Assembly (NCBI RefSeq): GCF_019968905.1
Contig: NZ_CP079946.1
Location: 124,001 to 188,000 of the forward strand
DNA: 64,000 nt
Direction: 5' to 3'
Source: Corallococcus sp. EGB
GTDB taxonomy: Bacteria; Myxococcota; Myxococcia; Myxococcales; Myxococcaceae
A program made the position numbers and the translations under genes. This document shows, piece by piece, positions 28,642 through 33,277 of the stretch (position 1 is the stretch's first letter; each line of letters begins with the position of its first letter). The notes beneath the pieces were generated by a model that was not told the origin of the DNA, did not search any database, and was given only the letters and a program-made list of their open reading frames with translations.

Positions 28642-29379
28642 TCACCGGCCGCGCAGGGCCTGGATGGCCGCGGACACGAGCGCGGCGTTGTCCTCCGCGC
28701 GCTGGCCATCCGGGAGCACGAGCGTGTCCTCCAGCCCAATGCGCGAGTCGAAGCCGTGGCACCCTGCCCACGCGAGCACGGCCCACGCGCCGCCCTCGGA
28801 GCCGTGCACGAGCAGGGGCGATGTGAGCCCCGTGGCGCGCAGCAGCTCCACCCGCGTCCTCGCCTCCTGACACGCGGCCTCCGGCTGGGGGGACTGCGTC
28901 TCCACGAGGATGCGCAGGCACTCCGAGGCACGGGGCCACGCGGCCAGCCGGAGCACGTCCTCCGGGAACCACACGCCGGCCTCCACGCCGATGCCCGCGT
29001 CGAGCAGCGCGTCCGCGATGGACTCCCAGCCCGGCTCGGACAGGTTGACGGAGGCGAAGTCGGGCCGGGTCCTGGCGGACAGGCTCTTCCAGCTGGAGAT
29101 CCGCGCGTGGCGGGCCTCCACGTCCGGGAGGATCCACGCGCCGGTGCTGACGCCCACGGGCACGCCCGGACAGGCGTGGCGGATGTCGGACACCGCGACG
29201 GCGATGTCCACCGCGTCCAGGGACTCGCCGCCGTGCGCTGCTCGCGGATGCACGTGGAACGCGCCCGCGCCCGCGGCGTGACACGCGGCCGCGTCGCGCG
29301 CGAGCGCTTCGGGGGTGACGGGCAGCCGGGGATGATCCGCGGCCGCGCGGGCTCCGTTGAGGCAGACCTTGAGCAGCAT
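28642..29379 (-). CDS. DUF849 / BKACE family (3-keto-5-aminohexanoate cleavage-like) enzyme
   Basis: 245 aa from ATG 29379. TIM-barrel of the beta-keto acid cleavage family, which condenses a beta-keto acid with acetyl-CoA using Zn. Signatures: MLLKVCLNGAR at the start, AAACHAAGAGAFHVHPRA with the metal-binding His-x-His, VGVSTGAWILPD, and SVNLSEPGWESIADALLDAG, closing with RIGLEDTLVLPDG. It is shorter than the usual 270-310 aa, but all barrel motifs are present. Keto acid substrate unknown. Same strand as the SDR 67 bases downstream; possibly one transcript. Confidence 0.82.
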   Translation of the reverse strand: MLLKVCLNGARAAADHPRLPVTPEALARDAAACHAAGAGAFHVHPRAAHGGESLDAVDIAVAVSDIRHACPGVPVGVSTGAWILPDVEARHARISSWKSLSARTRPDFASVNLSEPGWESIADALLDAGIGVEAGVWFPEDVLRLAAWPRASECLRILVETQSPQPEAACQEARTRVELLRATGLTSPLLVHGSEGGAWAVLAWAGCHGFDSRIGLEDTLVLPDGQRAEDNAALVSAAIQALRGR

Positions 29380-29523
29380 GCGCGGGATGAAGCCACGAGT
29401 GGCGCCGTCCACGGGCTTCTTGAAGTTGCTCCGTCCGCTGGTGGAAATCCCGCTGCACGAAGGGAGGGGTGGGTTGTTCCCGGGTCCGTGACCGTTTACC
29501 GGTGAAGGACGCAGCCCCGCGCC

Positions 29524-30087
29524 ATGGAGGAGGTGCTTCCCGTCATGCGTCGCCTGGAACAGGTCGTGTTCGGCCACACGGTGGAAGGACTGCTGGGGGC
29601 CCTGGAGGGGCATCTGGATGCCCCGCTCCGGGCCCGCTTGAAGCGCGTGGGGCTGGACCTGGAGCAGGAGCTGGAGCCCGCCTATCCCCGGGAGCAATGG
29701 CACCAGATGGTGTCCCTGGCCGCGGAGGCGCTCTTCCCCAACCTGTCGCCGCACCAGTCGCACTGGCTGCTGGGACAGCGGTTCCTCACGGCCTACTTCT
29801 CCACCCGCATGGGGCGCGCGCTGCAGGCCGTGCTGAAGATCCTGGGCCCCGCCCGCGCGCTGGAGCGCACCGCGCGCAACCTGGCCTCCGGCAGCAACTT
29901 CCTGAGCGTGGACGTGGAGCGCCTGGCCGGCACCGACTACCGGCTGATGGTGAGCCATGGCAGCGACCGCCCGGAGTTCATCGGAGCCCTGTGCCACTTC
30001 GGGACGCTGACCACCGGCGTGAAGGGGCTCACCACCGTGGTGGAGGCCCACGCGTCGCCCTCCGCGACGTACCGGATGCGCTGGTGA
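29524..30087 (+). CDS. DUF2378 (TIGR02265) family protein, copy 1
   Basis: 187 aa of a family expanded in myxobacteria and of unknown function. Core: EQVVFGHTVEGLLGALEGHL, the AYFSTRMGRALQAVLKILGP block, and GALCHFGTLTTGVKGLTTVV near the end. No signal peptide or membrane helix. By hand alignment, 128 of 187 residues match the next gene without gaps, so the two are a tandem duplication. No ribosome site stands out before ATG 29524. TIGR02265 proteins have been suggested to be lineage markers; do not infer a reaction. Confidence 0.88.
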   Translation: MEEVLPVMRRLEQVVFGHTVEGLLGALEGHLDAPLRARLKRVGLDLEQELEPAYPREQWHQMVSLAAEALFPNLSPHQSHWLLGQRFLTAYFSTRMGRALQAVLKILGPARALERTARNLASGSNFLSVDVERLAGTDYRLMVSHGSDRPEFIGALCHFGTLTTGVKGLTTVVEAHASPSATYRMRW

Positions 30088-30294
30088 CAGGCCGGGCCGT
30101 GAAACATGTTTTAGACAGCACCCGGTGAAGTCACGAAACAGGAGAGAGCCGGGCTCCCCGGGGCAGGGTGAAAGGCTTTCGGGAATTGCCTCGTGAGATG
30201 GCAGGAAAAATACATCTGGGTTGCGCGGATCAGTTGTTTCACGACGCCAGTCCGTCTACCCATGGCGGGTGCATCCACGGCTTGCCCCCGAGCC

Positions 30295-30858
30295 ATGGCG
30301 AAGGAGCCTCACGTCGTGAGTCCGCAGGACGAAGTCGTGTTCGGTCACACGGTGGAGGGCCTGCTGGTGGCCCTGGAGGGGCATCTGGACGCCCCGCTCC
30401 GAGCGAAGTTGAAGGACGCGGGCCTGGACGTGGACCGGAAGCGGACGCCCGCGTATCCCAAGATGCAGTGGTACCAGTGGCTGCGGATCTCCGCGGAGGC
30501 GCTCTTCCCGGGCGTCCCCATCGGGCAGGCGCATTGGCAGTTGGGAGAGCGCTTCATCGACGCCTACTTCTCCACGAGCATGGGGCGCGCGTTGCAGGCC
30601 GTGCTGAAGATCCTGGGCCCCGCGCGCACGCTGGAGCGCACCACGCGCAACATGGCCTCCGGCAGCAACTACGTGCAGGTGGACGTGGAGCGGCTGGGCC
30701 CCACGGACTACCGGCTGAAGGTGAATGACGCCGGCCTCCACCCGGAGTTCTTCGGCGCCCTCTGTCACTTCGGGACGCTGACCACCGGCGTGCAGGGGCT
30801 CACCACCGTGGTGGAGGCCCACGCGCCGCCCTCCGCGACGTACCGGATCCGCTGGTAG
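30295..30858 (+). CDS. DUF2378 (TIGR02265) family protein, copy 2
   Basis: 187 aa from ATG 30295, giving exactly the same length as copy 1; the frame is open from 30193, but that extension lacks similarity. Same core blocks (EVVFGHTVEGLLVALEGHL, FSTSMGRALQAVLKILGP, CHFGTLTTGVQGLTTVV), with most differences in residues 41-66 and 73-89. The 207-base gap before it is AT-richer than average and contains AAACATGTTT (30102-30111). That gap may hold its own promoter, but no clear -35/-10 pair could be assigned. Confidence 0.88.
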   Translation: MAKEPHVVSPQDEVVFGHTVEGLLVALEGHLDAPLRAKLKDAGLDVDRKRTPAYPKMQWYQWLRISAEALFPGVPIGQAHWQLGERFIDAYFSTSMGRALQAVLKILGPARTLERTTRNMASGSNYVQVDVERLGPTDYRLKVNDAGLHPEFFGALCHFGTLTTGVQGLTTVVEAHAPPSATYRIRW

Positions 30859-30883: not shown

Positions 30884-33151
30884 TCAGCCGTGGGAGATGA
30901 CGAACTCCTTCTCTCCCACGCGCACCTGGAGCAGGCGCTGCATGCCCGACCCCAGCTTCCACCGGAGGGCGAGCTGATCCATCCACGCGACGAACGCGGT
31001 GACGCGGAAGTCGTCGCAGAGCAGGTCATCCAGGGCCGTGAACACCTGCTGCACGGAGGAGGTCGAGTCGTTCTCCGCGATGACGGCCTCCGACTGGATG
31101 GCCTTGTTCAGCGCGATGAGCTTGTCGAGCAGGTCCCTCCAGAACACGTAGACCTTCCCGTACGGCCGGCCTCCGATGTCACCCCCGTAGCGCGAGGACT
31201 GCACGAGCACATCCGAGAACGTGCCCGTGGCGCCGCTCTGCTCCCAGTGTGACGCGACGAAGCCATCCGCTCCCGCCTGGGTCTTCAGGTGCCAGGCCAC
31301 GTTCGCCTTCGCCTTGTCGAGCGTCCAGTCCCTCGCCCCGTCCTTGAGGTACGCGTCCCAGAGCGGCGCGTAGAGCTCTTCCCGGCGCTGGACGCTGGCG
31401 CGCACGGGCTGGTTGGCCCGGGGCAGGGCGCGCGCCAGGGCCCTCGCGAAGGCGTTGCGTTCGAAGACGGGCTCGGAGCCCAGCTTCGTCAGCAGCCGCC
31501 GGAAGCTGGGGTTGTCCACGCGCAGGTCCAGCCGCGTGGCGGTCTTCGTGCCGGCGGGCGCCTCGCGGAAGAGGCGGTCCACCAGCGCCAGCGCGTCCTC
31601 CGGACGGACCGCGCCCCAGACGGTCGCCCCGTCCACGGCGCGTTGGATGAGGTCCTTCGACAGGCCGTCCTCCACCTGGCTCTGGGCGAAGAGGGCGTAC
31701 TCGAACTCGTCCGCGCTGGGCGTGAGGCTGAAGCGCGGCATCTGGGCGCTGAAGTCGAGCCCCCAGCGGGCCGTCTTCCCGTACAGCACGCCGGAACTCG
31801 AGTAGCTGCGCGCGCCCAGGAACGCGTAGCGGCGAGGGCCCTGGCGGTGGTCGCGGGACGCGTGCTGGACCACGGACTTGAGCTTCCGCCGGTCCTCCTG
31901 CGAGGCGAAGTTGACGTCTCGCCAGCCCAGGCCCAGGCCCCAGACGCGCTGGGACTCCACGGACTTCATGTGGAAGTAGCGCCGCAGCCAGGTGTCGTTC
32001 ACCCGGTGCTGGATGGAGGCCAGGTCGCCGGAGACGAACGCGCCGTGCGCGCCCGCCAGCTCCGCCGCGGGCACCTCCAGCTCCAGCAGGGTCGCGTCCT
32101 CGGTGCTGCGCGCGTACTCGTATTCGAAGCCGGCCTTGAGCGCGCTGCCCACCACGCTCTCCACGAAGTCCTTCAGCTCCTCATACGCGGCCGTCACCGA
32201 CTCGAGCGTGGGCTCCACCGGCTTGAGGAACCCCAGCTGCTTCAGCAGCGCGGCGGCGACGTGGAGGAGCGCGGGCTGGAGCGAGCCCTGCTCCAGGCCT
32301 TCGACGACCTTCAGGGCGTCCTGCACCTTGGAGTCCACGGCGCTCAGGATGGACGCGAGCAGCGGCGACGAGTACCCCAGCGAGACGCCGGCGGACACCT
32401 GGGCCGTCGCGGCGTCGGAGGTGGCCTTGCGGACCGACACGCGGAACGCGCCGCCCGCCGTCGGCCGCGAGAAGACCATGCGGAACTCGTCCTGGAGCGA
32501 CACGGTGCCGCCGATGGACGCGCCCACGTCCGCCTTCAGCTCGAACACCAGCTGTCCCGCCAGCCGCTTCGCGAGCGCCGCCACCAGGGTCGTGCTGATG
32601 GCGGACCAGGACGCCTTCACCCCGGTCCTCAGCGCGACGCGCGTCTGGAACGACAGGGCGTCACCGGGCTGGAGCGCCTGCACATCTCCCAGCAGGAAGG
32701 GCAGGCGCAGCGACTTCACGTCCGACCCCAGCGCGGCCTCCAGCGTCTGGGTCGCGGCGTGCCGCCGGTAGTCCGCCACCTGCACCTGGAGCACCCCGCC
32801 GCCGCTCAGCTCCACGAAGGGGAAGGTCCCCGTGCCGTTGGCCTCCGCGCTCAGCTCCGCGGCGTACTTCAGCCAGCACGCGGCTCCGTCCGGGGAGAAG
32901 AGGGGCTCGGGCATCGAACCGTCGGCATCCTTCGGCGCCACGCCGATGATGCCGTAGGCGTCCGTGTCGCCCTGGTCGTTGAAGAGCTCGACGGGGACCT
33001 TGAACGCGCCCGTGAGGGACACCTGGCCCCCCTGGATGGGGATGGCCTTGTTGCCGTCCAGCTCGGCGCTGCCCAGCGCCTGCTCGTGCGCGGCGTTGCC
33101 CAGCGCGAGTTTGAGAGTGTTCACCGCGGGAATGTGGATGCTCCAGCTCAT
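30884..33151 (-). CDS. Unassigned 755-residue protein
   Basis: I do not recognise this family. From ATG 33151 (frame open to 33259) the chain starts MSWSIHIPAVNTLKLALGN with no signal peptide. The first 250 residues look beta-rich (GQVSLTGAFKVPVELFND, VELSGGGVLQVQVADYRR, GTVSLQDEFRMVFSRP). Residues about 290-370 are helical (LASILSAVDSKVQDALKVVE). The C-terminal half is mixed, with Trp/Tyr-rich segments (VWGLGLGWRDVNF, SRYGGDIGGRPYGKVYVFW). Only three cysteines are visible. Length and fold layout suggest a multi-domain soluble or surface protein. It follows the lipid cassette on the same strand after 126 bases. Confidence 0.75.
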   Translation of the reverse strand: MSWSIHIPAVNTLKLALGNAAHEQALGSAELDGNKAIPIQGGQVSLTGAFKVPVELFNDQGDTDAYGIIGVAPKDADGSMPEPLFSPDGAACWLKYAAELSAEANGTGTFPFVELSGGGVLQVQVADYRRHAATQTLEAALGSDVKSLRLPFLLGDVQALQPGDALSFQTRVALRTGVKASWSAISTTLVAALAKRLAGQLVFELKADVGASIGGTVSLQDEFRMVFSRPTAGGAFRVSVRKATSDAATAQVSAGVSLGYSSPLLASILSAVDSKVQDALKVVEGLEQGSLQPALLHVAAALLKQLGFLKPVEPTLESVTAAYEELKDFVESVVGSALKAGFEYEYARSTEDATLLELEVPAAELAGAHGAFVSGDLASIQHRVNDTWLRRYFHMKSVESQRVWGLGLGWRDVNFASQEDRRKLKSVVQHASRDHRQGPRRYAFLGARSYSSSGVLYGKTARWGLDFSAQMPRFSLTPSADEFEYALFAQSQVEDGLSKDLIQRAVDGATVWGAVRPEDALALVDRLFREAPAGTKTATRLDLRVDNPSFRRLLTKLGSEPVFERNAFARALARALPRANQPVRASVQRREELYAPLWDAYLKDGARDWTLDKAKANVAWHLKTQAGADGFVASHWEQSGATGTFSDVLVQSSRYGGDIGGRPYGKVYVFWRDLLDKLIALNKAIQSEAVIAENDSTSSVQQVFTALDDLLCDDFRVTAFVAWMDQLALRWKLGSGMQRLLQVRVGEKEFVISHG

Positions 33152-33277
33152 GAGGCCCCCCAGCCATGGAATGAGGCCGTGGAGCATCGCCGCGAGGCCC
33201 GCCTGCCCGCTTCCGGCGCCAGGGAGGTGCGACTGTCTTCGCGGTGAAAGCGTCAGCACCCCGGGTCGCCGGGATGT

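Follow-up and report, generated by a model that had tools for sequence, protein, structure and literature searches.

The window analysed here is a stretch of 64,000 nucleotides from Corallococcus sp. EGB (contig NZ_CP079946.1, positions 124,001 to 188,000). It carries two adjacent genes of equal length on the plus strand, named A and B, which encode proteins of the DUF2378 family. The order of the genes is a beta-keto acid cleavage enzyme (minus strand), A, B, a 791-codon gene (minus), a weak acyltransferase match that falls just below its cut-off (minus) and a KAS III gene (minus). The positions that DUF2378 copies occupy at this locus in the genus are referred to as slots A to D. The features, in coordinates of the window, are as follows:

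29524 to 30087, plus strand: copy A, DUF2378/TIGR02265 protein of 187 amino acids (ATG to TGA); slot A is also present in 8 of 15 congeners
29644 to 29721, plus strand: divergent segment of copy A, residues 41–66, a loop and most of helix 56–70 (helix limits taken from the AlphaFold2 model of B); 10 of 26 residues identical to B
29740 to 29790, plus strand: divergent segment of copy A, residues 73–89, a loop and helix 76–91; 7 of 17 residues identical to B
30295 to 30858, plus strand: copy B, DUF2378/TIGR02265 protein of 187 amino acids (ATG to TAG); modelled H-NOX fold over residues 15–187
30415 to 30492, plus strand: divergent segment of copy B, residues 41–66; 10 of 26 residues identical to A; faster on the B branch
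30511 to 30561, plus strand: divergent segment of copy B, residues 73–89; 7 of 17 residues identical to A; faster on the B branch
30884 to 33259, minus strand: 791-codon open reading frame between slots B and C; start probably near 33151
33152 to 33277, plus strand: position of slot C, another DUF2378 copy; occupied in 13 of 15 congeners, empty here

Both proteins are full-length members of DUF2378/TIGR02265 and show no difference from the family, as the profiles match over the whole domain and above the curated cut-offs (PF09536: 173.6 bits, E 4.6e-51 for A and 191.8 bits, E 1.1e-56 for B, cut-off 22.2; TIGR02265: 112.7 and 126.7 bits, cut-off 25). The original prediction of tandem paralogs of equal length and about 68% identity proved exact, with 128 of 187 residues matching without gaps; BLASTP aligned 127 identical residues over 181, and the genes are identical at 454 of 561 nucleotides. 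Two direct repeats with a spacing of 771 nt, one of 224 nt (77%) and one of 300 nt (86%), span most of both genes. The distribution of the differences was likewise as first described. Divergence is found in residues 41–66 (10/26 identical), 73–89 (7/17) and the first dozen residues (2/12), and the core blocks are nearly invariant (25/28 identical in residues 13–40, 6/6 in 67–72, 41/50 in 90–139 and 28/31 in 157–187). A further divergent block, absent from that description, covers residues 140–156 (9/17 identical). This clustering is not random: the densest 49-residue window within residues 13–187 holds 26 of the 49 differences in that range, a density reached in 1 of 5000 permutations, and the maximum of a 26-residue window was reached in 26 of 5000, whereas the maximum of a 17-residue window is by itself unremarkable (1078 of 5000). 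The open reading frame of the beta-keto acid cleavage gene extends antisense through copy A (28642–30051, minus strand, 469 codons). A rough gene caller based on GC3 chose this antisense frame and missed A, so that automatic annotation may drop this copy. A simple scan for sigma-70 promoters found none.

The assembly contains 18 DUF2378 matches over the cut-off, among which A and B are the closest pair; of the remaining paralogs, L012 comes nearest to A (36% identity) and L004 to B (40%). The 18 copies split into a six-copy group (L008, L009, L010, L011, L014 and L016; support 100/100) and a group of twelve that includes A and B. Across the phylum, a DUF2378 match occurs in 117 of 195 genomes and in 98 of the 149 of high quality, and 14 control genomes have none. 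At least 80 of the 96 Myxococcaceae genomes listed carry at least 10 matches, and among the 27 matching genomes outside this family 26 have at least 1–4 and one has at least 15, all per-genome counts being lower bounds. A DUF2378 protein on a record titled Comamonas sp. KCTC 72670 (L091, BNCN01000007.1) is identical at 177 of 182 residues to the proteins of two Myxococcus records (L072, L073); this record is probably a mislabelled myxobacterium or a contamination. Tandem copies are also seen at a second DUF2378 locus, where the gene that is single here (L005) has tandem orthologs in G006, G008, G011 and G012 (L152–L155), which are 75–76% and 83–90% identical to L005.

The locus was compared in 16 genomes of the genus, comprising the window genome and 15 congeners. 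Slots A and C are occupied in six genomes (G004, G006, G008, G010, G011, G012), A, B and C in two (G001, G003), A and B without C in the window genome, D and C in three (G002, G005, G015) and C only in two (G007, G009). Two genomes (G013, G014) have none of the four copies and still carry the 791-codon gene and its acyltransferase neighbour. Slot A is thus kept in nine of the 16 genomes, the window genome included. The B copies of G001 and G003 lie at the same position as that of the window, their orthology being assigned by position with weak tree support. A and B are two standing copies of a local array in Corallococcus, the ordinary product of copy turnover.

Phylogenetic trees favour a separation of A and B at some depth within the genus. 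In the protein tree, all nine A copies form one clade that excludes B (99/97), and the same clade appears in the DNA tree of the N-terminal half (100/99). The B copy of the window falls just outside the A clade (85/76), the B copies of G001 and G003 pair with each other (99/93) and adjoin the A clade and the B copy of the window, and all A and B copies together are fully supported (100/100), followed by D and then by C. Support for a common clade of the three B copies is weak in the tree of the N-terminal half (71/37), and the full tree does not show it. Since the nine A copies group together to the exclusion of B, the A/B split would predate several species. A topology with the A and B of the window as sisters was not rejected by the AU test (p 0.124 at full length, 0.095 in the N-terminal and 0.469 in the C-terminal half), so this age is favoured by the trees, not proved. 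The expectation that the two copies are sisters in the family tree was thus borne out in one respect, as they are the nearest copies within the genome, and not in another, as the A clade of the genus excludes B. The order of the clades likewise favours a history in which the C-type copy came first, local duplication followed and C was lost here. Gene conversion between A and B was considered for the nearly identical C-terminal blocks and set aside, the signal in the sequences being suggestive only. Over residues 90–125 and 157–187 they differ at 2 of 42 fourfold sites, compared with 8 of 37 between B and the B copy of G003 (p 0.04) and 6 of 39 between A and the A copy of G004 (p 0.15). In the C-terminal half, the highest identity of B is with A (88%), and the tree of this half rejected no tested topology (AU p 0.44–0.53).

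The rates of codon substitution were analysed with a purpose-written model (own code, not PAML) on a fixed nucleotide tree. Omega was 0.208 in residues 41–66 and 73–89 and 0.108 elsewhere (likelihood ratio test, p 3e-11), and it exceeded 1 in none of the segments or branches tested. On the B branch, the two segments had an omega of 0.72 over a background of 0.19 (p 2.9e-4). This test is partly circular, the segments having been selected for their difference between A and B; the background contrast was estimated mainly from other branches. When the rest of the gene was also freed on this branch, the values were 0.95 in the segments and 0.18 elsewhere (p 8e-4). The A branch showed no significant acceleration in the same segments (omega 0.32, p 0.26). 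The core blocks are strongly constrained, with omega between 0.07 and 0.12 in residues 13–40, 67–72, 90–125, 140–156 and 157–187 and of 0.16 in residues 126–139. With the hydrophobicity of a column taken as no more than a proxy for burial, A and B differ in 12 of the 48 columns that are mainly hydrophobic and in 37 of 127 others (p 0.71), and within the two segments in 8 of 14 and 18 of 29.

These rates bear on the proposal that the duplicates specialise at one surface, for which the patch would be made of residues 41–66 and 73–89. It draws on the clustering of the differences and on the faster B branch (omega 0.72, or 0.95, over 0.19, p 2.9e-4). Hydrophobic columns, however, differ as often as the others, omega stays below 1 throughout, the B test is partly circular and A is not significantly accelerated. 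The two segments are less constrained (omega about 0.2 against 0.1), and the proposal, as made in the original prediction, is not supported; we regard such a specialised patch as decidedly unlikely. A better candidate is relaxed constraint, in which B, and to a lesser extent A, would be partly redundant and drift in their least constrained segments, the birth and death of copies being the main process. The turnover of slots A to D among the 16 genomes, with C missing in the window, and an omega that is raised yet below 1 speak for it. It has to accommodate the strong constraint on the core blocks, the intactness of both copies and the retention of slot A in nine of the 16 genomes, and we hold it as a tentative possibility that falls short of probable.

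The clearest indication of what these proteins may be came from structure prediction. An AlphaFold2 model of B, built from 31 alignment rows of which A is one, had a mean pLDDT of 92.5 and a pTM of 0.87, residues 1–9 being poor. A Foldseek search of this model against the PDB gave a best E of 1.7e-6, with TM values of 0.66–0.69 in the top six. The 44 chains at E≤1e-3 consist of 43 H-NOX or sGC heme domains and one designed protein at rank 43; the assignment was made by title except for 3nvr, 3nvu and 3m0b, which we take to be H-NOX or sGC heme domains. VIA-align agreed, as the first 37 of the 50 matches listed are H-NOX or sGC chains (Z 12.0–14.5, 161–169 residues, 2.9–3.6 Å). The best of them (Z 14.5, 168 residues, 3.1 Å) extends the fold over residues 15–187 of B, and by this measure the predicted model has an H-NOX fold. 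They are followed by an N-terminal fragment of VirS (Z 10.3) and by TRAPPC3/Bet3 chains (Z about 10 over about 130 residues), and no V4R chain is among the 50 matches listed. A sequence search of solved structures with an 18-row DUF2378 profile returned nothing credible (best E 1.7). The description of the family as one with no known function agrees with the available sections of PMC9257966; a fold can now be assigned to it by prediction.

Kinship with HNOB (PF07700; the heme nitric oxide/oxygen sensors, including sGC beta) was also found at the level of sequence profiles. HNOB proteins were gathered from the same phylum, 22 rows being used, and HHalign of 75 DUF2378 rows against them gave 92.6% in local and 94.7% in global alignment (scores 48.2 and 46.2). 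With either HNOB or DUF2378 reversed, the values fell to 0.1–0.2% (scores 6–13), and DUF2378 against its own reverse gave 1.3%. When the two groups of paralogs were aligned to HNOB separately, the six-copy group reached 95.6%. The group of the window gave 30.6% over 68 columns with all rows and 44.1% over 149 columns with the rows of its own genome, reversed controls lying at 0.1–0.8%; the two groups aligned with each other at 98.1%. The direct sequence case linking the group of the window to HNOB is therefore weak, and its kinship would rest on the link through the six-copy group and on the predicted fold. The aligned core contains a YP motif, the helix after it and a conserved glycine (G84 here) that stands opposite the FG of HNOB. 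Neither A nor B has a match to Pfam HNOB or Pfam V4R at E≤1. A search for HNOB genes found none in the 16 genomes of the genus, and V4R matches occur in all 16.

The features by which H-NOX domains hold heme and zinc are those in which DUF2378 differs. The proximal histidine, described as absolutely conserved in H-NOX by a published survey (PMC7108781), is present in 20 of 22 HNOB rows, whereas in no column inside the domain does histidine reach 30% of the 18 paralogs. It is most frequent in column 153 (28%), which has histidine in five members of the six-copy group, isoleucine in A and phenylalanine in B. The proximal position falls ambiguously on column 120 or 121 of DUF2378. Column 120 is tyrosine in all six members of the six-copy group, leucine in A and methionine in B; column 121 is arginine in 12 of 18 paralogs and alanine in both A and B. 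Basic residues are kept on the same helix, at column 111 (arginine or lysine in 18 of 18) and column 115 (arginine in 12 of 12 of the group of the window). The YxSxR motif, found in 22 of 22 HNOB rows, is absent at its H-NOX place from all 75 DUF2378 rows; the pattern occurs elsewhere in eight of them (YFSTR, residues 91–95), among which A has it by chance at residues 91–95 only, and B has none. A C-x6-8-C pattern in the C-terminal part is found in 18 of 22 HNOB rows and in none of the 75 DUF2378 rows. Because the proximal histidine, YxSxR and the zinc cysteines are missing, A and B fall outside the heme H-NOX proteins on the features tested. In the six-copy group, the tyrosine at column 120 and the histidine at column 153 make an unusual binding of metal or heme conceivable.

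Taken together, the predicted fold and the sequence profiles make it most likely that DUF2378 has the H-NOX fold, lacks the canonical heme ligands and has expanded in myxobacteria. This assignment, as an H-NOX-fold family related to HNOB that would lack the canonical heme ligands, is the finding of the analysis; no literature linking DUF2378 to H-NOX and none on TIGR02265 was found, and the link may be recorded elsewhere, for instance in the Pfam clans. The explanation that we consider reasonably probable is that of an array grown by duplication, whose products are single-domain, HNOB-related H-NOX-fold proteins without heme ligands that bind a hydrophobic ligand and act on a partner in trans. 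The fold (as a prediction), the kinship to HNOB at the level of the family and the missing proximal histidine, YxSxR and zinc cysteines are its computed parts. Under this explanation, local duplication would have enlarged the array in Corallococcus, leaving A and B as two of its copies, and the proteins would not bind heme in the way of H-NOX. By analogy with V4R domains, which are thought to bind hydrophobic molecules and to signal in cis or in trans (PMC2253512, in its available sections), the H-NOX-like body may hold another small ligand, probably hydrophobic, and the state of the ligand may be passed to a partner in trans. In the loop and hairpin 41–89, the divergence of the two copies would reflect weaker constraint and possibly the tuning of ligand or partner choice. 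We infer a sensing or an adaptor role; a shared fold alone is not proof of function. A precedent for an H-NOX body that signals without heme is the redox-sensing H-NOX of Vibrio cholerae, which differs in that it senses through the cysteines of its zinc site and belongs to a family that keeps the heme histidine, according to the available text of PMC7108781; DUF2378 has neither.

Other readings of the same evidence differ in what the fold is used for. DUF2378 could be a relative by fold only, a scaffold or oligomerising adaptor like the TRAPP/Bet3 subunits that binds no small molecule. The TRAPPC3/Bet3 chains, whose fold may be related, reach Z about 10 along some 130 residues, but the H-NOX matches are longer (161–169 residues) and higher (Z 12.0–14.5), and the family profile aligns with HNOB, the one family covered by the profile comparison; on balance this is somewhat unlikely. 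The H-NOX fold, again as predicted, could instead point to heme held by unusual ligands, if not by A and B themselves then by the wider family, through a tyrosine or arginine near the proximal position or through His 153. The tyrosine (6/6) and histidine (5/6) of the six-copy group and the arginine of 12 of the 18 paralogs at column 121 are compatible with this idea, which we nevertheless judge improbable, given that A and B hold leucine and methionine at column 120, alanine at 121 and isoleucine and phenylalanine at 153, and that the porphyrin-binding YxSxR is missing at its place across the whole set. A last alternative looks to the neighbourhood and sees in the array an immunity-like or regulatory companion of the hypervariable 791-codon gene beside it, which the array flanks in 14 of the 16 genomes (own included) and whose allelic classes roughly track the states of the array. 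As G013 and G014 carry the 791-codon gene at the same locus without copies A to D, the gene and the array do not form an obligate pair, and 16 of the 18 DUF2378 copies in this genome are found at other places; a companion role is highly improbable.

The 791-codon gene has no Pfam match at E≤1 and no relative among solved structures was found; nor was it found outside the genus in a search of 39 relatives. The AlphaFold2 model of its product, made from five rows, is unusable (pLDDT 37.7). The gene and its homologs (L049–L062, L150, L151) form four diverged classes in the 16 genomes, three of them with 83–97%, 88–91% and 90–93% identity within the class and one a singleton in G001, with 45–64% between classes. 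G001 and the window genome are 88–91% identical in the flanking DNA and about 67% in this gene where it aligns, and by these sequence comparisons the locus is polymorphic. A second paralog in this genome (G000:C1:991352-993331) is 32% identical (31–34% in 15 congeners) and lies away from the DUF2378 array.

The predicted fold of DUF2378 gives a frame to the study of a family that is represented 18 times in this genome and to which the available sections of PMC9257966 assign no function: the question becomes what these proteins bind, be it heme, some hydrophobic ligand or nothing at all. Were the sensing reading true, the genus, in which HNOB was found in none of the 16 genomes and which has 18 DUF2378 copies here, would have replaced the heme-based gas sensing of HNOB by numerous variants of the same body, devoid of the heme ligands. 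A published lead, the sole functional result that was found, fits this reading, as an annotated DUF2378 gene is up-regulated by the alkylquinolone HHQ in Myxococcus xanthus and in Cystobacter ferrugineus (PMC9257966, in its available sections). An extension of the sensing reading, which is speculative and which we consider unlikely, is that DUF2378 provides social predatory bacteria with many receptors of H-NOX fold that work without heme and respond each to a hydrophobic signal of its own, whether lipids of the cell itself or prey molecules such as alkylquinolones. The A/B array would then be a place at which duplication, with divergence of hairpin 41–89, gives rise to new specificities.

Rough gene calls were made in the 8-kb stretches around the other 16 copies. 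Among the 8 of 105 called neighbours that were scanned, no constant signalling partner emerged. Two-component genes as neighbours were rejected as evidence: regulators or kinases lie near at least four of the 16 copies (L009, L010, L011, L018), the scan covered eight hand-picked neighbours of 105, and these genomes are rich in response regulators and kinases. By the same rough calls, L010 has a gene for a single-domain response regulator 3 bases upstream on the same strand (L142:3744-4901), and L008 has a KAS III gene 9 bases upstream, also on the same strand (L140:3876-5654). The array of the window is near a KAS III gene as well, and the two occurrences are a hint of lipid chemistry, nothing more.
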